Assembly: GCA_020073445.1 (NCBI GenBank)
Contig: JAIQFE010000001.1
Span: 496,001-560,000 of the forward strand
DNA: 64,000 nucleotides
Source of the DNA: Terriglobia bacterium
GTDB taxonomy: Bacteria > Acidobacteriota > Terriglobia > Bryobacterales > Bryobacteraceae
Direction of reading: 5' to 3'
The notes beneath the pieces are model-generated. The model was not told the origin of the DNA. It saw only the letters and a list, made by a program, of their open reading frames with translations, and did not search any database. The position numbers and the translations under genes are program-made. This document shows, in pieces, positions 13,026 to 39,678 of the stretch (its first letter is position 1; every line of letters starts with the position of its first letter).

Positions 13026-14242
13026 TTCTTCCACCGGCGCATGCTCGTCGATAGCGCTGCGACTCCGGCCACGACCACGATGGTCGCGGCGCCGCCGAAC
13101 GCCACCGAGGGGACTGTGCCCATCAAGGCCGCGGCCACTCCCGATTCCACCGCGCCCCATTGATTGGAGGCAGCGATGAACAATCCGTTCACCGCCGATA
13201 CGCGCCCGCGCAACGCATCCGGCGTGCGCGATTGCACTAGCGAAATCCGCAGCACCACGCTGACGCTGTCGAAGGCACCGGTCAGAAACAGCATCCAGAA
13301 GGAAAGCCAGGCCGACGTCGAAAACGCGAAACCGATGGTGGCCGCTCCAAACGCCGCGACGGTCGCCAGCAGAACCACGCCCGCGTGGCGAATCGGCGGC
13401 TGGTGAGCGATCCAGATGGCCGTGAGGCCCGCACCGACGGCCGGCGCCGCCCGCAGCCAGCCCAGGCCAGTCGCGCCGATCTTCAGGATATCGGCGGCGT
13501 AAATCGGCAGCAAAGCGGTCGCACCGCCGAAGAACACGGCCAGAAGGTCCAGGCTCATCGCGGACAGAATCACTTTTTCTTTCCATACGAAGCGAATGCC
13601 TTCGGCGACGGCCTTCAGCCCGATTTCCGGACGCTCATGCGCTTCCCGTTCCGGCAGGCGCATCATGGCGAAGCAAATAGCGGAGAGCACACAGCAGACC
13701 GCCTGGCCGATATACACGGCTTCGCTGCCGAACGCCGCGATGAGCGCGCCGGCGAGCGCGGGTCCGCCCATGGTGGCCATCTCGCGTGCCGATCCGCTCC
13801 AGGAGATCGCCTGCGTCAAGTTTTCAGGTGGAACCGTCTGCGGCAACATGGCCGACGTCGCGGGCCATTGAAACGCGCGCGCCGTCGCCGTGAGGAACAG
13901 GCAGGTGTAGATCAGCACCACGCCTCGGCCGCTTCCCGCTCCCGCCAGGGCAAACGCCACCAGCGCCTGGGCCACTTGCGTCACCATGGCGGTGCGGCTG
14001 CGATTGTAGCGGTCGGCGACGTGCCCCGCGACGAACGTGAACAGCAGCACGGGAATGATCTGGACCAATCCGACGTTTCCAAGGACTACGGGCGAGCGGG
14101 TGGTGAGATAGAGATCCCACCCGACCACGGTCGCCAGCATCTGCTGGGCGAACATGGAAAGGGTTGTGGCTATCAGTTGGAATCGGAACGCCCGCGAAGA
14201 AAACGCGGCATATGCAGTCACTGCTTCTAAGCGTACACGCAT
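13022..14242 (-). CDS. MFS transporter of the EntS/MFS_3 type
   Basis: About 406 residues with roughly 12 transmembrane segments. The family loop between helices 2 and 3 (GHVADRYNRSRT) and the DALRGRVSAVNG motif in the second half are typical of the MFS_3/EntS exporter group. The substrate is unknown. Its 3' end overlaps the convergent ThDP gene by 4 bp. The start is ambiguous: ATG at 14242 abuts an inverted repeat, and ATGs at 14269 and 14329 read through that repeat. It is divergent from an EmrA-like adaptor, with which it might form a tripartite efflux system. Confidence 0.87.
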   Translation of the reverse strand: MRVRLEAVTAYAAFSSRAFRFQLIATTLSMFAQQMLATVVGWDLYLTTRSPVVLGNVGLVQIIPVLLFTFVAGHVADRYNRSRTAMVTQVAQALVAFALAGAGSGRGVVLIYTCLFLTATARAFQWPATSAMLPQTVPPENLTQAISWSGSAREMATMGGPALAGALIAAFGSEAVYIGQAVCCVLSAICFAMMRLPEREAHERPEIGLKAVAEGIRFVWKEKVILSAMSLDLLAVFFGGATALLPIYAADILKIGATGLGWLRAAPAVGAGLTAIWIAHQPPIRHAGVVLLATVAAFGAATIGFAFSTSAWLSFWMLFLTGAFDSVSVVLRISLVQSRTPDALRGRVSAVNGLFIAASNQWGAVESGVAAALMGTVPSVAFGGAATIVVVAGVAALSTSMRRWKN

Positions 14243-23962: not shown

Positions 23963-24556
23963 ATGGGCCGATCCACTTCTCTTTCCAAAGTGTATCGCCG
24001 AAACCTTCCTCATTGGCATCCGCCCGGCGCCGCTGTGTTCGTCACCTGGAGGCTCTTCGGCTCACTCCCACGCCAAGCCGCCGTAAAGATTGTCTCGTCC
24101 GAGGATGCCGGGATGGCATTTCGAGATCTTGACGTTCATTTGGATCGCGCCGAGTTTGGTCCAACATGGTTGGCGTGGTCACCCGTTGCTGAACACCTGG
24201 TTCACATCATCAAGTCGGCCGACAACGCGCGCGGCTTATGCGCCCTGCATGCGTTTGTGGTGATGCCGAACCATGTGCACTTGCTGATCACGCCGATGAA
24301 ACCATTGTGTGAGGTGACCAAGTGGATCAAGGGCGCATCGGCGCGTGAGGCCAACCGACTCTTGACGAGGACTGGCGAACGATTTTGGCAGGACGAATCA
24401 TTCGATCACTGGGTTCGGAACGGAGCCCAGTTTGAGAAGATCCGAGAGTATATCTGGAGCAATCCTGTTAAAGCAGGTCTAGTAGAACACCCTGGTGAGT
24501 GGCCTTATTCAGACTGCCCGCGAAGAGCACAGGCTGAAAGCCTGTGCCACGGATGA
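23963..24556 (+). CDS. REP-associated tyrosine transposase (RAYT, IS200-like Y1 family)
   Basis: A 197-residue protein of the TnpA-REP family. The HUH metal motif is NHVHLL near residue 109, and the nucleophilic tyrosine is in EYIWSNPVKAGLV near residue 165. Such enzymes cut single-stranded REP DNA and are thought to mobilise REPs in trans. The gene is flanked by REP palindromes with the same stem; the right REP lies inside the end of the reading frame and encodes the last residues up to the stop. This direct association supports these REPs as its substrate. Confidence 0.92.
   Translation: MGRSTSLSKVYRRNLPHWHPPGAAVFVTWRLFGSLPRQAAVKIVSSEDAGMAFRDLDVHLDRAEFGPTWLAWSPVAEHLVHIIKSADNARGLCALHAFVVMPNHVHLLITPMKPLCEVTKWIKGASAREANRLLTRTGERFWQDESFDHWVRNGAQFEKIREYIWSNPVKAGLVEHPGEWPYSDCPRRAQAESLCHG
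24527..24549. repeat. REP palindrome, right of the RAYT (inverted copy)
   Basis: GCACAGGC (24527-24534), loop TGAAA, GCCTGTGC (24540-24547). Read on the minus strand it matches the left REP at 22 of 23 positions. It overlaps the 3' end of the RAYT coding region. Confidence 0.85.
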
Positions 24557-26879: not shown

Positions 26880-27377
26880 TTAACTTCCAGCCAACTGCGT
26901 CTTGAGGTAGTTGGCGAGCCCACCGAGCTCCAGGATCTTCTTGACCGAATCGGGGAGCTGCGGGAAGGCATACTCTTTGTCGCGCAGGCGGATCTTGCTG
27001 GCTGCAAGATCGATGCGGAGCGAGTCACCTTCCTGCACGTCGGGATACAATTCAGGGCACTCGAAAATCGGCAAGCCATCATTGATCGCGTTGCGATAGA
27101 ACGTGCGTGCGAAGGAACACGCCACCACGGCCTGGATGCCGAGCCCTTGAATCGCCGTCGCGGCCTGCTCGCGCGCACTGCCGCAGCCGAAATTGCGGCC
27201 CGCGACCAGGATCTGGAACTCGCGCAGCTTAGCCGGGAAGCCCTCACCCAGGACTTCGAAAGCGTGCTGGGCCAGTCTTTCGCGATCGATGTAGATCAGA
27301 TAGCGGCCCGGGATGATGATGTCGGAATTGATGTTGTCGCCGAACTTGTAGACGCGCCCTTGAATGGTCGATTCCAT
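26880..27377 (-). CDS. leuD: 3-isopropylmalate dehydratase small subunit
   Basis: A 165-residue swivelling-domain subunit of the LeuD/HacB kind. The substrate-recognition loop (FGDNINSDIIIPGRYL, residues ~12-27) and the swivel motif (VAGRNFGCGSAREQA, ~60-75) are intact, as is SFARTFYRNAINDG. With LeuC it isomerises 2- to 3-isopropylmalate in leucine synthesis. It follows leuC by 16 bp. The short form also fits related homoaconitase-type enzymes, so substrate is not certain. Confidence 0.88.
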   Translation of the reverse strand: MESTIQGRVYKFGDNINSDIIIPGRYLIYIDRERLAQHAFEVLGEGFPAKLREFQILVAGRNFGCGSAREQAATAIQGLGIQAVVACSFARTFYRNAINDGLPIFECPELYPDVQEGDSLRIDLAASKIRLRDKEYAFPQLPDSVKKILELGGLANYLKTQLAGS

Positions 27378-27393: not shown

Positions 27394-28656
27394 CTAGAAG
27401 AATTCACGAGGATCAGAGATCACGCCCTTGATCGCCGAAGCCGCCAGCGTCGCGGGACTCGAAAGATAGATCTCGGCCTTGCTGCTACCCATGCGTCCGA
27501 TGAAATTTCGATTCGCAGTCGAGAGGCAAACTTCGCCATCGGCCATGATTCCGCCGTCGCCCGCGCAGGCGCCGCAGCCGGGATTGGTGAACATCCCCCC
27601 GGCTTCGAGCAGGGTCTGAAAAACGCCGGTTTTCGAGGCTTCCAGCAGAATCTGCTTCGACCCCGGGGTAATAATCAGCCGGACGTTCGGATGCACGCGT
27701 CGGCCTTTGAGAATGCGCGCCGCCACTTCCAGGTCTTCGTATTTGGCGTTGGCACAGGATCCCAGGAACGCCTGATCGATCCGCGTGCCTTCCACCTGTT
27801 GAATCGGCTTGGTGTTTTCAACTTCGTGAGGACAAGCGACCATGGGCCCGAGTTTCCCTAGGTCCACAGGAAGCTCTTTTTCGTAGACTGCGTCCGCGTC
27901 AGCGGAAACAGGATGATATTGCTTGGACTTGTCCATGCGCCCGCGAAGATATTCTTCGGTCTTCGCATCCGGAGGCACGAAGGCGCACTTCACGCCCATC
28001 TCCATCGCGAGATTGGTCATGGTCATGCGTTCGGAGACGCTGAGGCCGGTGGTCGCGTGACCATGAAACTCCACCGCTTTGTATCCGCAGCCGTCGGCGC
28101 CCAAGGTCCCGATCAGGTGCAGCATCAGGTCCTTGGAATAAACACCCGGCGCGAGCTTTCCGCTCAGGACGATCTTGAACGTCTCCGGAACCTTCATCCA
28201 CAGCTTGCCGGTGATCCACACCGAAGCGACTTCGGTATAGCCGATGCCCGTTCCTAGCGCGCCCAGGCTGCCGTAAATGGTGCAGTGCGAATCGGTGCCG
28301 ACAATCAGATCGCCCGGGACGACGTGCCCTGCTTCCATTAGCACCAGGTGAGCGATGCCGGCGTCCACGTCGTAAAACTTGTTGATCCCGTTGGTGCGCG
28401 CGAAATTGCGGCTCACCTGCTGGTCGGTAGCGTTCTTCTCAGTCTTCGCGGGAGCGATGTGGTCCAGAACCACCGCCAGCCGGTCCGGATCGTAGAGCTT
28501 GGTCGCGCCGACCTTCTGCATCACGCTGACGGAACGCCACGTCGCCGTGTGGCTCATCACCAGATCGGGATAGGCGTCGACGATCTCACCCGGCCGCACG
28601 GAGGTCCTCCCGGACTTCGCGGCGAGAATTTTTTCGGCAATTGTAAATCCCGGCAT
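27394..28656 (-). CDS. leuC: 3-isopropylmalate dehydratase large subunit (Fe-S cysteines intact)
   Basis: A 420-residue aconitase-superfamily large subunit of the archaeal-like LeuC/HacA branch. All three [4Fe-4S] ligand cysteines are present: one in GSCANAKYEDL (about residue 297) and two in NPGCGACAGD (about 354 and 357). The catalytic GTDSHCTIYG segment is near residue 120. It forms the leuCD pair with the downstream gene. It is divergent from the operon at 28718, which encodes a second, cysteine-free copy of the same enzyme family. Confidence 0.9.
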   Translation of the reverse strand: MPGFTIAEKILAAKSGRTSVRPGEIVDAYPDLVMSHTATWRSVSVMQKVGATKLYDPDRLAVVLDHIAPAKTEKNATDQQVSRNFARTNGINKFYDVDAGIAHLVLMEAGHVVPGDLIVGTDSHCTIYGSLGALGTGIGYTEVASVWITGKLWMKVPETFKIVLSGKLAPGVYSKDLMLHLIGTLGADGCGYKAVEFHGHATTGLSVSERMTMTNLAMEMGVKCAFVPPDAKTEEYLRGRMDKSKQYHPVSADADAVYEKELPVDLGKLGPMVACPHEVENTKPIQQVEGTRIDQAFLGSCANAKYEDLEVAARILKGRRVHPNVRLIITPGSKQILLEASKTGVFQTLLEAGGMFTNPGCGACAGDGGIMADGEVCLSTANRNFIGRMGSSKAEIYLSSPATLAASAIKGVISDPREFF

Positions 28657-28717: not shown

Positions 28718-29947
28718 GTGTCGAATCAACGTCAACCGGTGGTGGGCTGGCAGGTGCTGGCGGCATCGTTCACCATCCTGATGGTGGCGTTTTCTTTTGC
28801 CCTATTTTCGCTCCCGATCTTTTATCCCTTCTTGCGAAAGACGTACCACTGGAACGCGGCACAAGCCTCGTCGGGCGGGTCGATCGTGCTGTTGTTGATC
28901 GGCGTGCTGGGTCCATTCATCGGGAAGCTTACCGACCGGTTCACGCCGAAAAAAATACTGCTGACAGGCATGTGCATCAGTACGGTATCTCTCGCCCTGC
29001 TTTCGACCATCGCTGGCCTGACGCAGTATTACGTGTTCTGCGTTCTGTTAGGGATCGGCACGGCCGCAGTCTCGCTGGTACCGACTTCGATGCTGATCGC
29101 GCCGTGGTTCTCGACCAAACGTGGCCTGGCTGTGGGCATCATCAACGCGGGTGTCGGTGTCGCCGGATTCATTGCGCCGAATTTGACCAGGAAGCTGATC
29201 GAGACGTTCAGCATGTCAGATGCGTTCCTGGTCCTAGGGGCGTTGATGATGATCCCGTTTGTGGTGACGCTGGCTCTCGTGCGAGGTGTCAGTCGCGCGC
29301 CCGCCTCCGCGCCACGGCACAGTCTGGCTAAGGCCGGCGACGTGATCAAGACTCCCATGTTCTGGATATTCGGATTCGGCCTGTTTTTCGCCGCGCACAC
29401 GCTGACCGGGATCCAGCAGCACCTGGCGCTGTACATGACCGGACACGGCGTGACTCCCACCAACGCGGCGTTCGCTTTGAGCATGCTATTGGGTGCGAGC
29501 GCGGTCGGTAAGATCGGCGGCGGAGCGATTGCCGACAAGTATTCGTCGCGCGTCTCGCTGCTGTGGAGCATTGTGTGCCTTGCGGCAGGGATCGGTGGCC
29601 TATTATCGGTGGAGCCGGGTTCGCCAGTGGTCTACTGGTCGGCCGCGATGTTCGGATTGGGATATGGAGGCGTCTTCAACGCGCCGCCGCTGATCGCTTT
29701 CGAGCATTTCGGAACTGAAAGAGTCGGCACGATATTGGGGCTCTTCATGATGTTCTTCGGCGTCGGAACGTCTTCCGGCGGGCTGGTAGCGGGGATGATT
29801 TTCGATCGAACACACAACTACGCGAATTCTTTCACCGTGGATCTGGTTTCTTGCGGCATCGGATTCCTGCTGTTATTCGCCGCTGCGCGACTTAAGAGCA
29901 CCGGTCCTCAGAGGCTTGCGGCGGAAGCCCGCGTCAGAGTGGCATGA
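28718..29947 (+). CDS. MFS transporter (oxalate/formate antiporter-like)
   Basis: A 409-residue permease with 12 hydrophobic segments. It has the inter-helix 2-3 motif GKLTDRFTPKK and GKIGGGAIADKYSSR in the second half, like monocarboxylate/oxalate-formate (OFA-type) carriers. It starts with GTG at 28718, 61 bp from the divergent leuC start, and heads a long operon; its TGA overlaps the ATG of the LeuD-like gene. As first gene of the cluster it probably imports or exports the organic acid handled by the pathway. Confidence 0.87.
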   Translation: MSNQRQPVVGWQVLAASFTILMVAFSFALFSLPIFYPFLRKTYHWNAAQASSGGSIVLLLIGVLGPFIGKLTDRFTPKKILLTGMCISTVSLALLSTIAGLTQYYVFCVLLGIGTAAVSLVPTSMLIAPWFSTKRGLAVGIINAGVGVAGFIAPNLTRKLIETFSMSDAFLVLGALMMIPFVVTLALVRGVSRAPASAPRHSLAKAGDVIKTPMFWIFGFGLFFAAHTLTGIQQHLALYMTGHGVTPTNAAFALSMLLGASAVGKIGGGAIADKYSSRVSLLWSIVCLAAGIGGLLSVEPGSPVVYWSAAMFGLGYGGVFNAPPLIAFEHFGTERVGTILGLFMMFFGVGTSSGGLVAGMIFDRTHNYANSFTVDLVSCGIGFLLLFAAARLKSTGPQRLAAEARVRVA

Positions 29948-30462
29948 GCTCTCCATTAATTCTGGAAGGCAACTGCTGGAAGTTCGGCCACAACATTCCC
30001 ACCGACATGATCACGCCCACGGCGTACGTGATGCGCGGCATGGGCGAGATGGTAAAGCATGTTCTCGAAAACGCCAATCCGGACTTCCCCAAGAACGTGC
30101 AGAAGGGCGACATCATCGTTGCCGGCCGCAATTTCGGCTGTTCGTCGGGACGCGCTATCGCGCCCAAGGCGATCAAGGCGACCGGCGTCGGCGCGGTGAT
30201 CGCCGAATTTTTCTCGCGCACTTTTTATCGCAACGGACCGGAGATCGGACTGCCGCTACTCGAAGCTCCTGGACTGCACGATCTGGTCGAAACCGGCCAT
30301 CGCATCCGGGTGAACATCGAAGCGGGTATCGTGGAGAATCTGACGACGGGCAAATCCATTCAAGGACGCGCGCCTTCGGGGCTGCTGCTCGACATGTTGC
30401 GCGCGGGTGGTTTGATCCCGTTGCTGAAAACCGACGCCGGGAAGATTTTACTTCGATCATGA
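29944..30462 (+). CDS. LeuD-like (aconitase-superfamily) small subunit of a catabolic operon
   Basis: A 172-residue swivelling-domain protein. It keeps the substrate loop (FGHNIPTDMITPTAY, residues ~15-29) and swivel motif (VAGRNFGCSSGRAIAP, ~60-75) but differs from the nearby LeuD throughout, so it is a separate lineage and not a recent copy. The presumed partner is the LeuC-like protein encoded five genes away at 33326, which lacks Fe-S cysteines. Both ends overlap neighbours by ATGA junctions, which implies translational coupling. It is probably half of a hydratase or isomerase acting on a carboxylic acid. Confidence 0.84.
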   Translation: MSSPLILEGNCWKFGHNIPTDMITPTAYVMRGMGEMVKHVLENANPDFPKNVQKGDIIVAGRNFGCSSGRAIAPKAIKATGVGAVIAEFFSRTFYRNGPEIGLPLLEAPGLHDLVETGHRIRVNIEAGIVENLTTGKSIQGRAPSGLLLDMLRAGGLIPLLKTDAGKILLRS

Positions 30463-31535
30463 CGCTGCTGCTAACGAATGAAGAAGTGGAGCAGGCGCTG
30501 ACTCCGCAGGACGCGATCGCTGCCACCGAGAGTATTTATCGAGAACTCGCCGAGGGCAAGGCGCTCAATCGCGCGCGGTCGCAGGTGTATCTGCCGGCCG
30601 AATCGCGCGAGCACCCGGGTTTCCAGTACCGCATGAAAACCCAGGAAGGCGGCAGTCTGGATTGCGGCGTGTGGGCGCTGCGCGTCACCTCCGATATGGC
30701 CGGCTTTTCGTATACCGCGGGGGTCAAGCGCCGCCGAATCCTTCCCGTCGCCACGGGTAACAAGTATTGCGGCCTGGTGATTCTGTTCGACGTCGAGAAG
30801 ATCGAACCAGTGGCGATCATGCCCGACGGTGTGATCCAGAAGGTCCGGGTGGCGGCGATGAGCGCGGTTGGCGCGCGCTATCTGGCTCCGGAGAAGCCGA
30901 AGGTGCTCGGATTATTCGGCAGCGGATGGCAGGCCAGCGCGCATCTCGAGTTCCTGGCTGCGCAATACAAATTCGACCAGATCAAAGTATTCAGCCCAAA
31001 CCAGGAACACTGCCGCGAGTTCTGCCGGGGCATGTCGGAGAAGTTGGGCCGCGAAGTTCGCTCTGTGAGCACGCCCAAGGAAGCGGTCGACGGTAGCGAC
31101 TTTGTCCAAGCCGCGACGGCCGCCTGGGACCCCGTGTTCGACGGCCACTGGGTCGAAAAAGGCATGTACGTGGCGTCCATCGGCGGCGCGGATGCGAGCA
31201 ACAAACGCCGCGAGATCGACGACGAGACCATTCGGCGCACCGACGTGTACTTCGTCCACTCGAAAGAAGTCGCGCGCAACGATCAGTCGCCCGATGTGTG
31301 GGAGGCCGCGCAGAAGGGAATCGTGCGCTGGGAAGATATCGGCGAGCTTCAGGATCTGGTCGCAGCAAAGCTCCCCGGTAGAACTAGTCCCGATCAGGTC
31401 ACGCTGTTCAACAACAATACCGGCGCGGGAACCCAGTTCGCGGCCGTGGGTTCGGCCGTGGTGAAGCGCGCGCGGGCGTTGGGCCTGGGTCGCGAGCTGC
31501 CGACAGAGTGGTTCCTGGAGAGCGTGTCGCCTTAG
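30459..31535 (+). CDS. Ornithine cyclodeaminase / mu-crystallin family protein
   Basis: About 358 residues. The N-terminal dimerisation/substrate domain has RMKTQEGG near residue 52; the Rossmann domain has LGLFGSGWQASAHLE near residue 150. The family includes ornithine cyclodeaminase, alanine dehydrogenase, imino-acid reductases and EutC of ectoine utilisation. The ATG at 30459 overlaps the LeuD-like stop (ATGA); an open frame continues far upstream but is not coding. In this operon it probably reduces or deaminates an amino or imino acid intermediate, which is inference. Confidence 0.86.
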   Translation: MTLLLTNEEVEQALTPQDAIAATESIYRELAEGKALNRARSQVYLPAESREHPGFQYRMKTQEGGSLDCGVWALRVTSDMAGFSYTAGVKRRRILPVATGNKYCGLVILFDVEKIEPVAIMPDGVIQKVRVAAMSAVGARYLAPEKPKVLGLFGSGWQASAHLEFLAAQYKFDQIKVFSPNQEHCREFCRGMSEKLGREVRSVSTPKEAVDGSDFVQAATAAWDPVFDGHWVEKGMYVASIGGADASNKRREIDDETIRRTDVYFVHSKEVARNDQSPDVWEAAQKGIVRWEDIGELQDLVAAKLPGRTSPDQVTLFNNNTGAGTQFAAVGSAVVKRARALGLGRELPTEWFLESVSP

Positions 31536-31537
31536 CC

Positions 31538-32590
31538 ATGCAGAGGATCAACGAACACAGGCGGACGCAGCTGTTGAATCTTATGACCGAGCGCGGTTGG
31601 GATTCGATCTTGCTGTACGGAAACGCGTGGCGCAAGGATCCGTTCCGCAGCCTGGTGAATATCAACTTCTCTGGTGACCACGCTCTCGCGCGTTTGTCGC
31701 GCTCCGGCGATGTGACGGTAACGTTCAGTGATCCCTGGGACGCGGAGACAGCGTCCGCGGCGCTGCAGGCCGATTTCGCGAAGGCATTCGCCGGCGGGGC
31801 AGCAGCTGTTGCGGGCCTCGAGTTCATGGAGGAACGATTCGTCGCAGCCTGCGGGACGCTGCCGGTTTCAGCGACGACCGAGGTCGAAGAGCTGCGCCGC
31901 GTCAAGACCGCAGAGGAAATCGGGTACATCCGACAAGCCTGCGATCTCGCGGATCGCGGCTACCAGAGGTTCGTCGAAGTCGCCGAACCCGGCATGCGGG
32001 AATTCGAGTTGGTCGCTGAAGTGGAGGCGTTCTTGAAAGAGAACGGCGCCGAGGACAACTTCATGCTGATCGCGTCCGGCGGGATCGAAGTGGTCGGGAT
32101 GAAGCCGCCTACGGATCGAAAATTGCAAAAGGGCGATTCGATCACGACCGAGCTGACTCCGCAGGTCAACGGCTACTACGCGCAGATCTGCCGGACGCTG
32201 GTTTTAGGAGAGCCTTCGCCAGACCAGCTTAAAGCCTTCGAGATTTTTTCGGAAGCGCAGTGCGCCGCGCAGGATCTGATTAAGCCCGGCGTCACTGCTG
32301 CCGACGCCGCGCGCGCCCAGAACGACGTCTTTCGCAAGTACGGCTATGGCGAATATACCGGAGCGAAGTACACGCGGGTCCGTGGGCACTGCCTGGGCCT
32401 TTATCCGGACGAAACGCCGCACATTCTGGAAGACGTGGATTACGTGCTCAAGAAAGATATGGTGGTGATCGCGCACCCCAACACCTATCTGCCTCTCTCG
32501 GGGTACATGGTGTTCGGCGATGTGCTGTTGATCACGGAAACGGGCAACACGCGGCTTAATAAAACCGAAAAGAAGTTGTTCACGAAATGA
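31538..32590 (+). CDS. M24-family (creatinase fold) protein with degenerate metal site
   Basis: About 350 residues: creatinase N-terminal domain (~1-120) and complete pita-bread domain (~125-340). Compared with aminopeptidase P, four of five metal ligands are replaced: Asp to Glu205 (ITTELTP), Asp to Gln216 (YYAQICRT), Glu to His313 (VIAHPNTY) and Glu to Gly327 (MVFGDVL). Only His284 (RGHCLGLYPDE) remains. It is therefore not expected to be a metallopeptidase. Creatinase and the ectoine hydrolase EutD/DoeA are known members that work without metal on small molecules. It starts two bases after the cyclodeaminase-family gene. Confidence 0.85.
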   Translation: MQRINEHRRTQLLNLMTERGWDSILLYGNAWRKDPFRSLVNINFSGDHALARLSRSGDVTVTFSDPWDAETASAALQADFAKAFAGGAAAVAGLEFMEERFVAACGTLPVSATTEVEELRRVKTAEEIGYIRQACDLADRGYQRFVEVAEPGMREFELVAEVEAFLKENGAEDNFMLIASGGIEVVGMKPPTDRKLQKGDSITTELTPQVNGYYAQICRTLVLGEPSPDQLKAFEIFSEAQCAAQDLIKPGVTAADAARAQNDVFRKYGYGEYTGAKYTRVRGHCLGLYPDETPHILEDVDYVLKKDMVVIAHPNTYLPLSGYMVFGDVLLITETGNTRLNKTEKKLFTK

Positions 32591-32600
32591 AGCCCAAGAA

Positions 32601-33329
32601 ATGAAACGCGGACTGATCACCTGGGACAAGGTCGAGCTGCCGCCTTCGGTGTTCGAAGCACGGCTGGCACGGGCGAGGAAGGCGCTCGCCGCGCAAGATT
32701 TGCCGGCCCTGCTGGTGTATTCCGACGTGTGGCGATCCAACGAAGGGCGGCATCTGACCAACTACATGCCGTATTGGAACCGGTCGCTGATCGTGATCCC
32801 ACGGGAACAACCGCCAGTCCTTTTGTGCGGGCTTTCGCCACGAGTCTATCCGTGGATCAAGTCGGTGACGGTGTTCGAAGAGATCCGTCCCGCATCGAAG
32901 CTCGTGCCGACCTTACTGCAACTCTGCACGGAGCGCGGATGGACCAAGCTCGGCGTACTCGACCTTCCCAGGTTGCCGCATGAGATCTACGCGCCGCAAA
33001 AAGCCTCCGGTGTGGAAGCATCCGACGTCCAGTTCGATCTTACGGATGACGCCGAGATCGCCATGCACCGGCGCGCCGAACAGATGGCTCAAGAGATCCT
33101 GACGGCCGAATTGCCTAGGGGAGCGGGGCTTACGGATTACCAGTTCTCAGGACTCTTGGAACGCGCTTTTCGGCGGGCCGGGGCCGAAGACTTGGTGCTG
33201 CTGTTCAGCACAGGCGACTCAGCACCGCGTCCCGCCTGCGGCACGATGCTCGGCGACAAATACTCGGTCGCGGTGGCTCTCGAATATCGCGGACATTGGG
33301 CACGCGTAAGGCGAGGTTTGCCGCTATGA
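32601..33329 (+). CDS. Short M24/creatinase-like protein, half pita-bread domain
   Basis: A 242-residue protein with a creatinase-type N-terminal domain (~10-135) and only the first ~100 residues of the pita-bread domain; all the metal-ligand segments of the fold's C-terminal part are missing. The end is abrupt (WARVRRGLPL) but the stop overlaps the ATG of the next gene (ATGA), so the short length may be native. It could be a non-catalytic partner of the M24 protein encoded upstream, or a decaying paralogue. Confidence 0.75.
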   Translation: MKRGLITWDKVELPPSVFEARLARARKALAAQDLPALLVYSDVWRSNEGRHLTNYMPYWNRSLIVIPREQPPVLLCGLSPRVYPWIKSVTVFEEIRPASKLVPTLLQLCTERGWTKLGVLDLPRLPHEIYAPQKASGVEASDVQFDLTDDAEIAMHRRAEQMAQEILTAELPRGAGLTDYQFSGLLERAFRRAGAEDLVLLFSTGDSAPRPACGTMLGDKYSVAVALEYRGHWARVRRGLPL

Positions 33330-34585
33330 ACATGATCGAAAAGATTCTTGCCAAGGCCAGCGGCAAGAAGGAAGTGGTGCCGGGCGACATTGTCGTCGCC
33401 AATGTGGACCGCATGGTTTTGCACGATCTCAGCTCGAACCTGGTCTCGAAGGTTTTCGAAAACGAGATGGGTGGAGGCACCATCTTCGATCCCGACCGTA
33501 TCGCCTTCGTCTTCGATCACACCTTCTCGCCGCCCAGCCAGGCCGATGCCGACGTTCTCACCGAAGCCCGCCGGTTCGCCGCAAAATACGGAATCCGTAA
33601 CGTGTTCGATTCCGGCTCGGGCAGCATCCACCATGTCATCATCGAAAACGGCTTGTGGGCGCCCGGCGACGTGATCATCGGCTGCGATTCGCACACCACC
33701 GTTTATGGAGCGCTGGGTGTTTTCTCCACCGGCGTGGGAAATAATTCCATGGCCGCGCTGGGCTACGCGCACGGTAAAGCCTGGTTCCGCGTTCCCGAAA
33801 CTATCCAAGTGGTCCTTCATGGGCCGCCGCCGGCCGGCACCACTCCGCGCGACGTCGCCCAGTATCTCGAAGGCTTTCTGGGCGAGGACAGCGCGGTCTA
33901 TCGTGCCGTCGAGTACGCAGGTCCGTTTATCGAAAATCTGTCGATCGAAGACCGCATGCTGTTTCCGCTGATGGCGATCGATCTCGGCGCCAAGGCCGGT
34001 TACATCAATCCGGACGAGAAGACCGCCGCCTATGCGCACAAATACTCGCGCAAGAAACATTTCGAGCTTTTCAAGAACGATCCAGGCGTGCAGTACGCCA
34101 AAGTCATTGACGTCGACCTGGCGCAGCTCGAACCGCAGGTGGCTTGTCCACCCACCGTCGGCAACGTCAAGCCGATCGGCCAAGCCGCGGGGATCGAGAT
34201 CCAGTTGGCCGAAATCGGCGGCAGCACCGGAGGACGGCTGGGCGATATCCGCGTTTTGGCGCAAGCGCTCGACGGAAAAACAGTTCATCCGAACGTCCGT
34301 TTGCAAGTAGTGCCGGTTACGCGAGGCGTGTATCTCGCGGCGCTGCGCGAGGGATTGCTTGAAACCATCGTCGAAGCGGGCGGCATCATTTTCCCACCCA
34401 GCGCCGGCTCGAACCAAGCCGTCAACATGGGCGCGATGAGCGAACAGGAGGCGATGATCTCCACGCAGGCGCGGAATTTCCCCGGCCGGAACGGGCACCC
34501 CAAGGCGAGGCACTATCTGGCATCCGCCGCGACAGTCGCCGCTTCCGCATTGGCCGGCCGAATCACCGATCCACGCAAAAGCTGA
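33326..34585 (+). CDS. LeuC-like aconitase-superfamily large subunit with all three Fe-S cysteines replaced by serine
   Basis: A 419-residue homologue of isopropylmalate dehydratase large subunits, aligned over full length with intact flanks. The first ligand motif, normally IGSCTN, reads IGGSTGG, with Ser300 at the cysteine position. The second, normally GCGxCxG, reads PPSAGSNQ, with Ser359 and Ser362 in a SxxS spacing. The substrate-side GCDSHTTVYGALG (119-131) is kept. Without thiolates a normal [4Fe-4S] cluster is unlikely, so dehydration would need another mechanism or metal. It starts by an ATGA overlap and presumably pairs with the LeuD-like protein at 29944. Confidence 0.85.
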   Translation: MNMIEKILAKASGKKEVVPGDIVVANVDRMVLHDLSSNLVSKVFENEMGGGTIFDPDRIAFVFDHTFSPPSQADADVLTEARRFAAKYGIRNVFDSGSGSIHHVIIENGLWAPGDVIIGCDSHTTVYGALGVFSTGVGNNSMAALGYAHGKAWFRVPETIQVVLHGPPPAGTTPRDVAQYLEGFLGEDSAVYRAVEYAGPFIENLSIEDRMLFPLMAIDLGAKAGYINPDEKTAAYAHKYSRKKHFELFKNDPGVQYAKVIDVDLAQLEPQVACPPTVGNVKPIGQAAGIEIQLAEIGGSTGGRLGDIRVLAQALDGKTVHPNVRLQVVPVTRGVYLAALREGLLETIVEAGGIIFPPSAGSNQAVNMGAMSEQEAMISTQARNFPGRNGHPKARHYLASAATVAASALAGRITDPRKS

Positions 34586-34663
34586 AGTCGCAAGCGTCGG
34601 TTCGGTATGATGTACGAGCGGCCCTCGTCAGCCTAAAATGGCTCGGCTGCAATGGAGACTGGG

Positions 34664-35695
34664 ATGATCATCGACTCACACGGCCACGTTACTGCCCCCG
34701 AAAAGTTGTACGTCTACAAGGCCAACATCTTGTCCCATCGGGGCGCGCACGGCCGCGGCAGCCACGGCGCCTCCGACCAGGAGATCAAGGACGCTCTGAA
34801 CTCGCCGGTCTTCGGCGGCACCTCCCACCTGGAGCAACTCAAGGAAGTCGGGACCGACATGCAGTTGATCTCGCCGCGTCCCTACCAGATGATGCACAGC
34901 GAGGATCCCAAGGTCGTGCGCTGGTTCATCGAAGAGACCAACGACATCATCTACAAGCAGACCAAGTTCTACCCCAACGTGTTCCGTGGAGTCTGCGGAT
35001 TGCCGCAGAGTCCGGGAGTCAGCCCCAAGGAAGTGCTGCCGTATCTCGAAAAATGCGTCAAGGAAATGGGATTCGTCGGATGCCTGCTGAACCCAGATCC
35101 GAGCGAAGCCACATCCACTACGACTCCTCCGCTGGGCGACCGCTTCTGGTATCCGCTGTACGAAAAAATGGTGGAGCTGGACATCCCCGGCCACATCCAT
35201 TCGGCCGGCTGCCGATCGCCGCGCCTCCCGTACTCCCTGCACTTCATCAATGAGGAGAGCATCGGGGTTGTGTCGTTGCTCGAATCGAACGTCTTCAAGG
35301 ATTTTCCGGCGCTGAAGATTCTCGTCTCGCACGGTGGCGGCGCGATTCCCTACCACTGGGCGCGCTTCGAAGCCAGCTCGCTGCGCCGCGGCGGAGAGCG
35401 TTTTTCGGAAAAGATGCGCAACCTGTACTACGACACGGTGCTCTATTCCAGCGAATCGCTCCAGCTGTTGATTAAGACCGTCGGTGCGGATCGATGCTTG
35501 TTCGGCACCGAACGCCCCGGGGTCGGCACCGTGAAGGATCCGCGCACGGGCCGGTGGCTCGATGAAACACGCTTCCTGATCGAAGCATTCGACTGGCTCA
35601 GCGCGGCCGACAAGAAGCTGATTTTCGAGGACAACGCCAAGAAACTCTTCAAGCTCGACGTCCCGGCCCAGTCAAGCGCCAAGGGAGTCAGCTGA
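34664..35695 (+). CDS. Amidohydrolase-fold hydratase resembling 4-oxalomesaconate hydratase (LigJ)
   Basis: About 343 residues of the COG2159 (ACMSD/LigJ) branch. With the start at 34664, which has GGAG seven bases upstream, the HxH metal pair is H6/H8 (MIIDSHGHV), further ligands are near H177/H179 (GHIHSAG) and H223 (VSHGGG), and a glutamate is at 283 (FGTERPG) where many relatives have Asp. This spacing and the Glu recall LigJ, which hydrates 4-oxalomesaconate in protocatechuate 4,5-cleavage. Decarboxylases of the same fold are the alternative. Two LigK/RraA-like aldolases lie downstream. A 78-bp gap from the LeuC-like gene may hold an internal promoter. Confidence 0.84.
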   Translation: MIIDSHGHVTAPEKLYVYKANILSHRGAHGRGSHGASDQEIKDALNSPVFGGTSHLEQLKEVGTDMQLISPRPYQMMHSEDPKVVRWFIEETNDIIYKQTKFYPNVFRGVCGLPQSPGVSPKEVLPYLEKCVKEMGFVGCLLNPDPSEATSTTTPPLGDRFWYPLYEKMVELDIPGHIHSAGCRSPRLPYSLHFINEESIGVVSLLESNVFKDFPALKILVSHGGGAIPYHWARFEASSLRRGGERFSEKMRNLYYDTVLYSSESLQLLIKTVGADRCLFGTERPGVGTVKDPRTGRWLDETRFLIEAFDWLSAADKKLIFEDNAKKLFKLDVPAQSSAKGVS

Positions 35696-36726
35696 TGAGA
35701 TCGCGCACCTGGCTGGCATTCCTGCTCGCGGCTGCTCTACTGGCTCCTGCCGCGTTCGCCCAGAAGATCACGCTGATCTATCCCAACCGCAGCGGCTCGC
35801 AGTGGCCGTTGTTCCTGGCGAAAGAAGGCGGCTATTACCAAAAATACGGGCTCGACGTGGATCTCAAGTTCGTCGTGCATCCCGGCAGCATCGCTGCGCT
35901 CGTCAGCGGAGATGCCGCGCTGGTGAATTCGTCGCTCGAGCAGTTGATGCAGGCCGCATCCAAAGACGGCTCAATGGTCATCGTGGGCAGCTCGCTCAAC
36001 AAGGGCACCTTCGCGCTGATGGCCCGCAAGGACGTCGCGAGCATCAAGGACCTTAAGGGCAAGCGGATCGCAGTCGGCCAGGTCGGCGACGCGCCGTACG
36101 GATATGTGGTCGCACTGCTGGCGAAATCGGGATTGAAGCCGCGCGATGTCGCATGGGTTCCGGTGGGCACCGACGTGAGCGGCCGCGCTGCAGCACTTGA
36201 GAGCGGTCGCGCCGATGCAACCATGCTGACTGCTCCCGCGTATTTCAAGCTGGAGGACGCCGGATTCAAGACGCTGGCGAATCTGGCCGAGCACGACGAT
36301 ATTTTCGCTTCGACGGGCTACCTGATGAAGAAGAGCCAGATTCAGGCCAATCCCAAGCTGCCCGAGTTGCTGATCAAGGCGCAGGCCGAAGCCATCAAAC
36401 GCTTCTATGCCGACAAGGCCTTCGCGGTGAAAGCCTACATGGTTTACGATAAGCAGCCCCAGGCCGATGTGGAACGGATCTACGACCTCTATGCCAAGCC
36501 CACGGCCTTCGAGCGCGTGCCTTATGTGCTCGCCGCCGCCGTCAAATCGGTAGTAGAGCAGCAGTCCGACCCGCAGATCGCCGCGCAGATGAAGGCTTAC
36601 GACTTCCACAAGGTGGTCGACAACAGCACGGTGGATCGGCTGGTGAAAGAGAAGTTCTTCGAGACGCTGTTCGGCGCGACCATAAAAGCGGAAGAGGATC
36701 GGAAGGCGAAGCTCGCGTTCAAGTAG
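35695..36726 (+). CDS. ABC transporter substrate-binding protein, NMT1/SsuA (NitT/TauT) type
   Basis: A 343-residue secreted binding protein: signal peptide (MRSRTWLAFLLAAALLAPAAFAQ) and a two-lobed SsuA/THI5-like fold with ITLIYPNRSGSQWPLFLAKEGGYYQKYGLDV at the ligand-entry side and LKGKRIAVGQVGD in the hinge region. It starts on the last base of the amidohydrolase stop. With the next two genes it forms a complete importer. Family ligands are sulfonates, thiamine precursors, riboflavin and aromatic acids such as phthalate; the ligand here is unknown. Confidence 0.9.
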   Translation: MRSRTWLAFLLAAALLAPAAFAQKITLIYPNRSGSQWPLFLAKEGGYYQKYGLDVDLKFVVHPGSIAALVSGDAALVNSSLEQLMQAASKDGSMVIVGSSLNKGTFALMARKDVASIKDLKGKRIAVGQVGDAPYGYVVALLAKSGLKPRDVAWVPVGTDVSGRAAALESGRADATMLTAPAYFKLEDAGFKTLANLAEHDDIFASTGYLMKKSQIQANPKLPELLIKAQAEAIKRFYADKAFAVKAYMVYDKQPQADVERIYDLYAKPTAFERVPYVLAAAVKSVVEQQSDPQIAAQMKAYDFHKVVDNSTVDRLVKEKFFETLFGATIKAEEDRKAKLAFK

Positions 36727-36745
36727 CGGCACGTTCGAGTAAAAA

Positions 36746-37543
36746 ATGGTCAAGCTGTCCATCGAGCACCTTTCCAAGCGCTACTGGTTCGAGCGTGAAG
36801 ACCGTGAAGTGCTCGCCGTGAACGATGTCTCGCTCGCGGTGGAGGACGGCGAATTCCTGGCGATCGTGGGTCCCAGCGGCTGCGGCAAAACCACTTTGCT
36901 CAACATCGTTGCGGGGCTGCTGCCCTACGAAGAAGGCACCGTCAGCATCGACGGGAAACGCGTCGACGGGCCGGGTGTGGACCGCGCCGTCGTATTTCAG
37001 CATTCGAGCCTGCTGCCCTGGCGGACCATCGCCGGCAACGTTCGCTACGGCATGGAAATGCAGCGCCGCTTCGATGAAGCGACTATGCGCGAACGTGCGG
37101 ATCATTTCGTGAAAATGGTCGGTCTCAACGGATTCGAGAAGCATTTTCCCAACGAGCTCTCCGGCGGCATGCAGCAGCGCGTGAATCTGGCGCGCGCGCT
37201 CGCGGCCGATCCGAAGGTGCTCCTGATGGACGAACCGTTCGCGGCGCTCGACGCGCAGACCCGCGAATTCATGCAGTCCGAGTTGCTGAAGATCTGGTCG
37301 CAGGACCGCAAGACCGTGCTGTTCATCACGCACCAGATCAATGAAGCCGTGTACCTGGCGGATCGCGTCGCGGTGATGAGTGCACGGCCCGGCCGGTTGA
37401 AAGGCGTTTTCAAGATTCCGTTCGGAAGGCCTCGCACGCTGTCTTTGAAACGCGATCCTCAGTTCCTCGAGATCGAAGATTCCATCTGGCAGCTGATCGA
37501 AGAAGAATCGCAAAAGCTCAACATGGTTCTGGCTGAGAAATAG
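36746..37543 (+). CDS. ABC transporter ATP-binding protein, SsuB/TauB type
   Basis: A 265-residue ATPase. Walker A is GPSGCGKTT near residue 46, the Q-loop lies in VVFQHSSLLPW, the signature is LSGGMQQR near residue 137 and Walker B is VLLMDEPFAALD near 156; the switch histidine follows in FITHQINEA. The ALDAQTR and LPW features are those of nitrate/sulfonate/taurine-type importers. It lies between the binding protein (19 bp) and the permease (2 bp). Confidence 0.93.
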   Translation: MVKLSIEHLSKRYWFEREDREVLAVNDVSLAVEDGEFLAIVGPSGCGKTTLLNIVAGLLPYEEGTVSIDGKRVDGPGVDRAVVFQHSSLLPWRTIAGNVRYGMEMQRRFDEATMRERADHFVKMVGLNGFEKHFPNELSGGMQQRVNLARALAADPKVLLMDEPFAALDAQTREFMQSELLKIWSQDRKTVLFITHQINEAVYLADRVAVMSARPGRLKGVFKIPFGRPRTLSLKRDPQFLEIEDSIWQLIEEESQKLNMVLAEK

Positions 37544-37545
37544 TC

Positions 37546-38346
37546 GTGTCTAAGAAAAAGAAATCCGGACGCCCTCACCAAAGCTTCTACGCGAAACACG
37601 AGGCGGTGATTCTCGGCAGCCTGTCGATCGTCATCATCATTGGAATTTGGCAAGCGTGCTGGTCGGCCGGAATGATTTCGCCGCTGTTTTTCAGCAGCCC
37701 CTCGGCCATCGTGAAGCAATTCCGGTACACGTTGGTGGAGGGAACCCTGCTCGCGGACATGAAGTACAGCGGCACAAACTTTGCGATTGGATTCGTGCTC
37801 GCCGTCATCACTGGAGTGATCGCAGGAGTCCTCATCGGCTGGTACCGGCGGCTGCGGCTGTTCTGCGATCCATTCTTGAACGCGTTTTACGCCACGCCCC
37901 GTATTGCGATGGTGCCGCTGATTATTATCTGGTTCGGAATCGGAATCTGGTCGAAAGTCTTTATCGTGTTCCTGTCGGCGTTCTTCCCGATCCTGGTGAA
38001 CACGGTCGGCGGCGTCCGGGCGCTCGATCGCGATTTACTGCGCGCCGCCAAGGCCTACTGCGCTTCCGACTGGCAGATTTTCAAGACACTCGCGATTCCC
38101 GGATCGGTGCCGTTCATCCTCACCGGCATCCGGCAAGGTGTTGCCCTGGGATTGATCGGCATGGTGGTCGGCGAAATGGTGGGAAGCAGCCAGGGCGTCG
38201 GCTTCATGGTGGCTTACGGCGGACAGACTTTCAATACCGACACGCTCTTCGTGGGCATGATCGTCATCGCGTTTTCCGGGATCCTGCTGACGTGGCTCGC
38301 CGAGCGCCTGGAACGTCGCTTTTCCCGCTGGAGACCCGAGCGTTAG
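37546..38346 (+). CDS. ABC transporter permease, SsuC/TauC type
   Basis: A 266-residue inner-membrane protein with six hydrophobic segments and the BPD inner-membrane motif (RAAKAYCASDWQIFKTLAIPGSVPF, residues ~165-190) that contacts the ATPase. It completes the NitT/TauT-type importer. It starts with GTG, two bases after the ATPase stop. Confidence 0.92.
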   Translation: MSKKKKSGRPHQSFYAKHEAVILGSLSIVIIIGIWQACWSAGMISPLFFSSPSAIVKQFRYTLVEGTLLADMKYSGTNFAIGFVLAVITGVIAGVLIGWYRRLRLFCDPFLNAFYATPRIAMVPLIIIWFGIGIWSKVFIVFLSAFFPILVNTVGGVRALDRDLLRAAKAYCASDWQIFKTLAIPGSVPFILTGIRQGVALGLIGMVVGEMVGSSQGVGFMVAYGGQTFNTDTLFVGMIVIAFSGILLTWLAERLERRFSRWRPER

Positions 38347-38352
38347 GAATTT

Positions 38353-39006
38353 ATGAACGAATTTGTCGCGCGGCTAAGCCGCCTGGATTCCTGCGCGGTT
38401 TCCGATGCGCTGGATAAACTCGGACTCAAGGGTTCGGTCACCGGGATCGAACGTTTTTCGACGGACCGTCGGATCACCGGACAGGTGTTGACGGTCAAGC
38501 TCGACCGCGCTGAAGGCCGGACCAATACTCGTCATCTCTGTACGACGGCAATCGACGCGGCGAAGCCCGGGGATATCATCGTTGTCGAGCAGCGCACGGG
38601 CCTCGATGCCGCGTCATGGGGCGGGAATCTGTCGATCGGCGCGCAAGTTCGCGGCGTGGCCGGCGTGATCGTCGAGGGTCCCGCGCGCGATATCGACGAC
38701 AGCCGCAAACTCGACTTCACAGTATTCGCGCGCAGCCATACGGCGCGGACCGCGCGTGGGCGGATCGTCGAAGTCGCCACCAACGAACCGATCACCGTCG
38801 GCGACGTCATCGTTTCACCCGGCGACTACGTGATCGCCGATGCCAGCGCGGTGGTCTTCGTAGCGCAGAGCGAAATCGAGCGTGTGCTCGAAGCCGCGGA
38901 AGGCATCATGCAGCGTGAAGATGCTCTGGCGCAGGCGATTCGTTCGGGCACGCCGATCAGCCAGGTGATGGCCGGGAACTACGAGAACATGCTGAAGAAA
39001 GCTTAG
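38353..39006 (+). CDS. RraA-family aldolase-like protein (first copy)
   Basis: A 217-residue protein of the RraA / 4-hydroxy-4-methyl-2-oxoglutarate (HMG) and 4-carboxy-4-hydroxy-2-oxoadipate (CHA) aldolase family. The active-site Arg-Asp pair is R112-D113 (EGPARDIDD), and the preceding WGGNLSIGAQVRGVAG segment replaces the more usual WGEL motif. Such class II aldolases split off pyruvate with Mg2+. It follows the permease by 6 bp. It differs clearly from the next gene, so the two probably have different substrates or form a heteromer. Confidence 0.85.
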   Translation: MNEFVARLSRLDSCAVSDALDKLGLKGSVTGIERFSTDRRITGQVLTVKLDRAEGRTNTRHLCTTAIDAAKPGDIIVVEQRTGLDAASWGGNLSIGAQVRGVAGVIVEGPARDIDDSRKLDFTVFARSHTARTARGRIVEVATNEPITVGDVIVSPGDYVIADASAVVFVAQSEIERVLEAAEGIMQREDALAQAIRSGTPISQVMAGNYENMLKKA

Positions 39007-39009
39007 AGA

Positions 39010-39678
39010 ATGCCAGACGATAAGCTAAAGAACGACAAGAATGTCGAGAGAGCCGCGAAGCTCGATACGACGGCGATTAGCGACGCCATGGACCGGCTCG
39101 GCATCGCCGGACAGTGCCTCAACATCAAGCCCCTGGACCCACGTTTCAGACTGACTGGCCGCGCGTTCACGATTCTCTACGGTCCTGCTGGAACCCCTCC
39201 CGGCACCGTCGGCGATTACATCGAAGATGTGCCTCCAGGCGGAGTGGTCGTGCTCGACAACGGTGGCCGCGAAAATGCAACCGTCTGGGGCGATATTCTC
39301 ACATGGGTCGCGAACCGGCGCGGCGTGGCGGGTACGGTGATCGACGGGGCCTGCCGCGATACGCATCTGGCGCGCGAACTCGGGTATCCCATTTACAGCC
39401 GCAGTTACTCGATGCGCACGGGCAAGGATCGCATCCAGGTGGAAGCGATGGGCGGCCCCGTGAACATCGGCGATGCACGCGTCAATCAAGGTGACATCCT
39501 GCGCGGCGACGCGGACGGAGTCGTCGCAATTCCCCAGGCGCATGAAGATGCGATCCTGACCAACGCCGAACAGATCGACGCCGCGGAATCGGAAATTCGC
39601 CGGCTGGTGAATGAGGGGAATACCCTCACGGAAGCGCGCAAGAAGCTCGGGTATCACAACCTCCAGACCAAGCGTTAA
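39010..39678 (+). CDS. RraA-family aldolase-like protein (second copy, LigK/ProA-like)
   Basis: A 222-residue protein closer to characterised HMG/CHA aldolases: WGDILTWVANRRGVAG near residues 97-112, R116-D117 in GACRDTH, and the QGDILRGDADGVVAIP segment near residue 160. CHA aldolase cleaves the product of LigJ to pyruvate and oxaloacetate, so together with the LigJ-like hydratase this gene suggests a hydration-then-cleavage sequence ending in central metabolism. It begins 3 bp after the first copy. Confidence 0.88.
   Translation: MPDDKLKNDKNVERAAKLDTTAISDAMDRLGIAGQCLNIKPLDPRFRLTGRAFTILYGPAGTPPGTVGDYIEDVPPGGVVVLDNGGRENATVWGDILTWVANRRGVAGTVIDGACRDTHLARELGYPIYSRSYSMRTGKDRIQVEAMGGPVNIGDARVNQGDILRGDADGVVAIPQAHEDAILTNAEQIDAAESEIRRLVNEGNTLTEARKKLGYHNLQTKR

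Follow-up and report, generated by a model that had tools for sequence, protein, structure and literature searches.

A LeuC-type large subunit lacking the three cluster-ligand cysteines, and its gene module, in Terriglobia and other bacteria

Enzymes of the aconitase type classically depend on a [4Fe-4S] cluster as their cofactor. A stretch of 64,000 nt from a Terriglobia bacterium (contig JAIQFE010000001.1, positions 496,001–560,000; hereafter, the window) encodes a LeuC-type large subunit, designated here LeuC', without the cysteines that hold this cluster, which raises the question of whether its product is still an enzyme and, if so, how it would work. The relevant features of the window are:

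26880–27377 (-), LeuD partner of the Cys-bearing LeuC
27394–28656 (-), Cys-bearing LeuC partner, not the housekeeping protein
28718–29947 (+), MFS transporter, also found in 7/8 acidobacterial loci
29944–30462 (+), LeuD', small subunit with motif GRNFGCSSGR, present in 19/19 related loci
30459–31535 (+), protein of the ornithine cyclodeaminase/mu-crystallin (OCD) family, 358 aa, overlapping LeuD' by 4 bases
31508–32590 (+), M24-family protein passing the Pfam M24 cut-off, start codon not settled
32601–33329 (+), M24', a second, diverged M24-like protein, its C-terminus shortened in this lineage
33326–34585 (+), LeuC', cluster-less LeuC-type large subunit, 419 aa, intact ORF; ligand positions Ser300 at 34223, Ala360 at 34403 and Asn363 at 34412
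34652–39678 (+), Amidohydrolase_2, NMT1-type binding protein (35695–36726), ABC ATPase, permease (ATPase and permease named by eye) and two RraA-like genes

A 458-aa open frame lies antisense to LeuC' (33137–34513, -); it is most likely a shadow ORF of a GC-rich gene. Apart from these features, an ORF at 23963–24556 (+) carries the motif MPNHVHLL, typical of REP-associated/IS200-like transposases.

Former ligand positions and active site of LeuC'

LeuC' was compared with IPM isomerase/homoaconitase (4nqy, 4kp1 and 4kp2) and mitochondrial aconitase (1b0m) using HMMER alignments, ungapped through both ligand motifs. We take Cys358 of aconitase to be the cysteine of the SCTN motif, and Cys421 and Cys424 those of the CGPC motif. 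These three residues are the cluster ligands in the numbering of PMC8184944. The first ligand cysteine aligns with Ser300 of LeuC' and the Cys-x-x-Cys of the second motif with Ala360-Gly361-Ser362-Asn363. The absence of the three cysteines, indicated in a preliminary description of the locus, thus holds in all four comparisons; that description had also placed the ligand positions exactly at Ser300, Ser359 and Ser362, of which only Ser300 is correct, since the other two serines are the residues one before positions 360 and 363. As aligned, the change is from Cys to Ser/Ala/Asn and not a concerted change from Cys to Ser, and the ligand-motif alignment rules out a triple Cys-to-Ser change. The LeuC-like product of 27394–28656 (-), the internal control of that description, does contain the three cysteines; it is not the housekeeping protein, a 471-aa LeuC encoded with its own LeuD elsewhere in the genome.

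LeuC' matches Pfam Aconitase and passes the cut-offs of NF001614 (425.6 versus 385 bits) and TIGR01343 (414.2 versus 385.7), with Ser300/Ala360/Asn363 in the place of the cluster-ligand cysteines of this family. It fails the IPMI_arch model TIGR02086 (394.8 versus 410.15) and the LEU2 equivalog TIGR02083 (389.9 versus 610.65), which the Cys-bearing partner also fails (456.4 bits), and is below the HacA_Meth cut-off (341.6 versus 550). In an AF2 model from 17 aligned rows (mean pLDDT 83.0, pTM 0.85), LeuC' is predicted to adopt the fold of large-subunit domains 1–3 of the aconitase superfamily, with low confidence at the cluster region: mean pLDDT falls to 51 at residues 121–140, 54 at 361–370 and 59 at 381–390. 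These stretches surround the former cluster, and the model therefore says little about the pocket. Its best Foldseek matches are the Methanocaldococcus IPM isomerase/homoaconitase large subunits (4kp1/4kp2; TM-score 0.9), with 0.82–0.85 for mitochondrial aconitase and AcnB. LeuC' resembles archaeal LeuC (MJ0499, 4kp1/4nqy) in length, fold (TM-score 0.9), sequence (38% identity), the D-H, DSH and RNFxGR motifs and the separate small subunit, whereas it lacks the three cluster cysteines and the Asn before RNF, its small subunit lacks the Arg of the PGR motif, and its loops read GGSTGGR/GGHGGGR, rich in Gly, and FPPSAGSNQ. Likewise, it shares fold and motifs with HacA (MJ1003, 4kp2), but differs in the same losses and in the HacA_Meth score.

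According to PMC8184944, the fourth iron of aconitase is surrounded by a network of Asp165, His167 and His147, while Ser642 serves as the base and His101 as the acid. The aconitase DSH motif aligns with Asp121-Ser122-His123 of LeuC', in agreement with the DSH segment noted before, and the His of IIHQ with His102. The DH motif of IPM isomerase pairs with His65, which probably corresponds to aconitase His101, the alignment to aconitase beginning only after this point. Proposed earlier as a partner, the LeuD-like gene at 29944 proved real by family match and by alignment to 3vba, in which Ser68 pairs, without gaps, with the leading Ser of the canonical SSR. Across the family, the general-base Ser, the DSH and D-H motifs and the Arg residues, to which we assign substrate roles as in the aconitase superfamily, are present in 17/17 large subunits and in 23/24 small subunits, the remaining one being cut. 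By these alignments, the residues equivalent to the fourth-iron network and the base serine of the small subunit are kept.

The small subunits form two types: GxxFGxSSGR occurs in 23/24 LeuD' (the 24th, from locus L013, is cut at a contig end) and GC[GN]S[AS]R in 15/15 partner LeuD, with the first small subunits of L023 and L025 scoring best with LeuD' and counted as partner LeuD by motif and place. Members outside Acidobacteriota have Gln in place of the Cys in the LeuD' motif. Additionally, LeuD' lacks the Arg of the PGR motif found in acidobacterial and deltaproteobacterial LeuD, which we take to bind the substrate.

A cysteine-less family under purifying selection

A scan of genome contigs retrieved 20 loci, of which 19 (L008–L026) encode a cysteine-less protein and one (L027) an ordinary protein with the three cysteines (CCC) at 29% identity. 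With further genome loci added, and after removal of exact duplicates and of two extra copies of window proteins, the tree comprised 24 cysteine-less rows, window included, and 24 CCC rows: 15 module partners (counting that of the window), others from the same genomes, and L027. Each row had to align in one stretch of at least 250 residues, by which housekeeping LeuC, aligning in two pieces, drops out; paralog matches for which no locus was retrieved, including several in genome G403, lie outside the row set.

None of the 24 family members has any of the three cysteines, and all 24 comparison rows are Cys/Cys/Cys. The ligand positions are Ser/Ala/Asn in 12 members, all from Acidobacteriota, and His/Thr/Asn (eight) or His/Ala/Asn (four) in the others, all from outside this phylum: Deltaproteobacteria-labelled bins, Lachnospiraceae, Peptococcaceae, Spirochaetota and one further genome in the phylum of L015. 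The Ser/Ser/Ser members sought as relatives thus did not appear in alignment or tree, and a concerted replacement giving serine ligands does not fit, with two positions being Ala/Thr and Asn and the third His in 12/24 rows. Since position 300 is Ser or His and position 360 Ala or Thr, the family conserves no new ligand set at the old cluster site.

The 24 cysteine-less sequences fall on one side of a single branch (support 100/100), on a stem of 1.55 changes per column where long branches meet, making their sister group unsure. LeuC' being one group on a long stem, with the housekeeping LeuC elsewhere in the genome, we rejected an origin as a copy of housekeeping leuC. In an alignment of 17 LeuC' rows, with the near copies L008 and L010 and the broken L025 left out, D64, H65, H102, D121, S122, H123, S362, N363, Q364, R383, N384 and R388 are invariant (17/17). 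None of the 23 columns that carry any cysteine is invariant, the fullest having one in 12/17 rows. The acidobacterial member L026 has Gly instead of Ser359, and Glu196 is His in Bacillota and Spirochaetota. The residue before the RN motif is Ala (15), Val (1) or Pro (1) in the 17 rows and Asn in 23/24 CCC rows; this Asn appears to have been lost together with the cysteines.

The dN/dS ratio was 0.023–0.099 in 10/10 LeuC' pairs (Nei-Gojobori), although dS was above 1 in six of the ten, which makes their ratios approximate; purifying selection maintains the protein. Because of this selection and the contrast of 24/24 with 24/24 rows, the loss of the cysteines is more than chance or error. In a Treponema metagenome bin, LeuC' (L025:8001–9248) contains an in-frame stop.

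A module of patchy distribution

Within the order, an exact-motif scan detected LeuC' in 8/150 genomes, window genome included; the Cys-bearing partner LeuC (E <= 1e-150, 78–100% identity) occurs in the same eight of 150, with both genes on different contigs in genomes G438, G454 and G492. Identical sets of eight would have a chance of 2e-13 if independent, a value far too extreme given shared ancestry and linkage; part of the co-occurrence seen in a single order reflects common descent. The exact motif appeared in 1/396 genomes of the phylum, again counting that of the window, and, centre genomes included, in 2/297 genomes of the phylum of L015, 1/247 of the phylum of L023 and 1/299 of the family of L018; the scan relied on exact matching, which misses variants. 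The best listed identity to LeuC' among plasmid records was 39.5%, and 361/361 matches, compared by identity only, were below 60%. The locus is an accessory module of patchy spread, and LeuC' is half of a two-enzyme set.

LeuD' accompanies LeuC' in 19/19 loci (two cut by contig ends) and a Cys-bearing LeuC is nearby in 14/19. Among the five loci without an adjacent Cys-bearing LeuC, the genome of L014 has one on another contig (L064), that of L013 a piece of 82% identity where a contig ends, and that of L024 a 37% candidate; for L012 the only match was a 43% piece of 99 residues, and the genome of L017 yielded no clear Cys-bearing LeuC partner. Both M24 and M24' are found in 13/19 loci (8/8 acidobacterial, 5/6 from Bacillota/Spirochaetota and 0/5 Deltaproteobacteria-labelled), as is the OCD-family gene (8/8, 0/6 and 5/5, respectively), gene absences being weak because several loci span only 4–6 kb. 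Loci L018 and L020 (Bacillota) and L023 and L025 (Spirochaetota) show two tandem LeuD' after LeuC', a PreA-like gene and an AbrB-type membrane protein, these two families having been identified on L018. The amidohydrolase adjoins the module only in L008–L010, and the RraA genes only in L009. On the deltaproteobacterial contig of L021, three UbiD-family decarboxylase genes (L021:3667–6729 and 12697–14127) flank both LeuC/LeuD pairs; they would fit unsaturated acids as intermediates.

The nearest solved sequences to the OCD-family protein are delta1-pyrroline-2-carboxylate reductase (6t3e) and iminosuccinate reductase (6rqa), and it is probably an imine reductase. In the M24-family protein, compared using what we take to be the prolidase metal-ligand numbering of 1pv9, the ligands D/D/H/E/E are E/Q/H/H/G in 14/14 rows (window 31508–32590, L008–L014, L018–L020, L023, L025 and L026). 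Because four of the five metal ligands are replaced, this protein may be a metal-free, creatinase-like hydrolase. For M24', a profile of 11 relatives matched prolidase 9kw9 (E 2.4e-9). No His is invariant in the 11 aligned rows, and the 3' end of the gene lacks around 200 bases in this lineage compared to L009, directly before LeuC'.

Genes of the AcnX type lie near OCD-family imine reductases, and the breakdown of cis-3-hydroxyproline follows a dehydratase/reductase logic comparable to that suggested for the module. EutC and EutD belong, by NCBIfam and PDB matches, to the OCD and M24 families, as do the module proteins, whereas EutB is of the threonine-dehydratase family, unlike LeuC'. PMC5924519 describes a proposed hydroxyectoine route with a dehydratase, a reductase and a ring hydrolase. 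On the ectoine hydrolase model the window M24 protein reaches 64.4 against a cut-off of 613, and on EutC the OCD protein reaches 98.6 against 471.65; with both scores this far below, ectoine degradation was discarded. By analogy, the module would resemble hydroxyectoine or cis-3-hydroxyproline logic, but both the M24 and the OCD protein fall short of those family cut-offs.

A putative aconitase-type enzyme without the cluster

We favor, with a probability of around 0.6, that LeuC' and LeuD' together make up a catalytically active heterodimer, belonging to the IPM isomerase/homoaconitase branch and working without a [4Fe-4S] cluster. This reading is supported because the cysteine loss defines one group (24/24), dN/dS is 0.023–0.099 and the catalytic residues are kept; the predicted fold, the small-subunit motif in 23/24 LeuD', the presence of its own LeuD' in 19/19 loci and of a Cys-bearing LeuC in 14/19, the loss of the Asn before the RN motif, and the identical sets of eight genomes also count for it. 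Counted against it are the poor model at the cluster region, the variable residues at positions 300 and 360, the lost PGR Arg, the change of Glu196 to His and the broken L025. The core of the preliminary description, an enzyme maintained without the cluster, is thus upheld at the level of sequence by cysteine loss across several phyla, purifying selection and retained catalytic residues.

In such an enzyme, the subunit interface would bind the substrate through Arg383, Arg388 and Arg70 of the small subunit, with Ser68 of the small subunit as the putative base and His65 as the acid. The substrate is probably a di- or tricarboxylate and, as the neighbours weakly hint, perhaps amino- or imino-substituted. 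There may be no metal, if no hydroxide leaves, and the reaction could be a 1,3-proton shift, an epimerisation or the elimination of a better leaving group; this proton-transfer or elimination chemistry we put forward tentatively, as less likely than not. Almost as likely, by our estimate, is that a single metal ion replaces the oxygen-sensitive cluster in tandem with the cluster-type pair, aiding the reaction from His102, Asp121 and His123, joined in the non-acidobacterial half by His300 in place of a cluster Cys. For a metal, these residues (17/17 for the first three) appear to be a better candidate set than the Ser/Asp/His proposed initially; the non-dehydrating reaction offered there as the alternative stands about level with a metal. 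The pair would act beside a cluster-type LeuC/LeuD, an imine or PreA-like reductase and, often, an M24 protein with altered ligands; the whole set has the appearance of an import-and-degrade module, and the adjacent genes hint at a dehydration step, then reduction of an imine or alkene and hydrolysis of a C-N bond.

The close company of a Cys-bearing paralog could also be explained if LeuC' were a pseudoenzyme, binding substrate or the Cys-bearing LeuC/LeuD pair and tuning that pair without catalysis, and the strict pairing fits such a role as well. A second paralog pair, M24/M24', in 13/19 loci points the same way: M24' lacks an invariant His (11 rows) and has a shortened C-terminus in this lineage, and here, too, an altered paralog would stand next to its counterpart. 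However, pseudoenzymes usually lose catalytic residues, whereas here base, acid and network residues are invariant (17/17 large subunits), and LeuC' keeps its own conserved LeuD' in 19/19 loci, with two copies in four of them; we consider a pseudoenzyme unlikely. We see still less room for a cluster bound through other ligands, be they shifted cysteines as in AcnX or His300 and Asn363 at former ligand positions, and judge it very improbable. AcnX types I and IIb do use partly shifted cysteine sites, according to PMC8184944 and PMC10040528, but LeuC' has no invariant cysteine column (the fullest of 23 reaching 12/17), the Cys in the LeuD' motif gives way to Gln in non-acidobacterial members, and Ser/Ala/Asn gives no usual cluster ligand set. 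AcnX, a phosphomevalonate dehydratase, is comparable to LeuC' as a divergent dehydratase of the superfamily with an altered cluster site; unlike LeuC', it still binds an Fe-S cluster through cysteines (same sources), and AtAcnX has a cysteine at the His147 position (PMC8184944), where LeuC' has His102. With 13–16% identity and a TM-score of 0.51–0.57 to AcnX, and being closest to IPMI, LeuC' does not belong to that group. Finally, random decay of a redundant leuC, or sequencing error, could draw on the stop inside the gene in L025 and on the origin of most members in metagenome bins; the same loss in 24/24 members, intact surrounding motifs and dN/dS of 0.02–0.10 rule it out for practical purposes.

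Neither a cysteine-less LeuC/HacA clade nor the gene set of the module was described among the matches listed in the open-licence PMC literature. One published scenario (PMC8184944) holds that the common ancestor of the aconitase superfamily was cluster-free. If the favored reading is true, a living clade without the ligands but with the acid-base machinery would make the role of the cluster testable. Additionally, the NCBIfam subfamily models pass such cluster-less proteins as ordinary members, and the close association of LeuC' with its Cys-bearing sister hints at a catabolic pathway.
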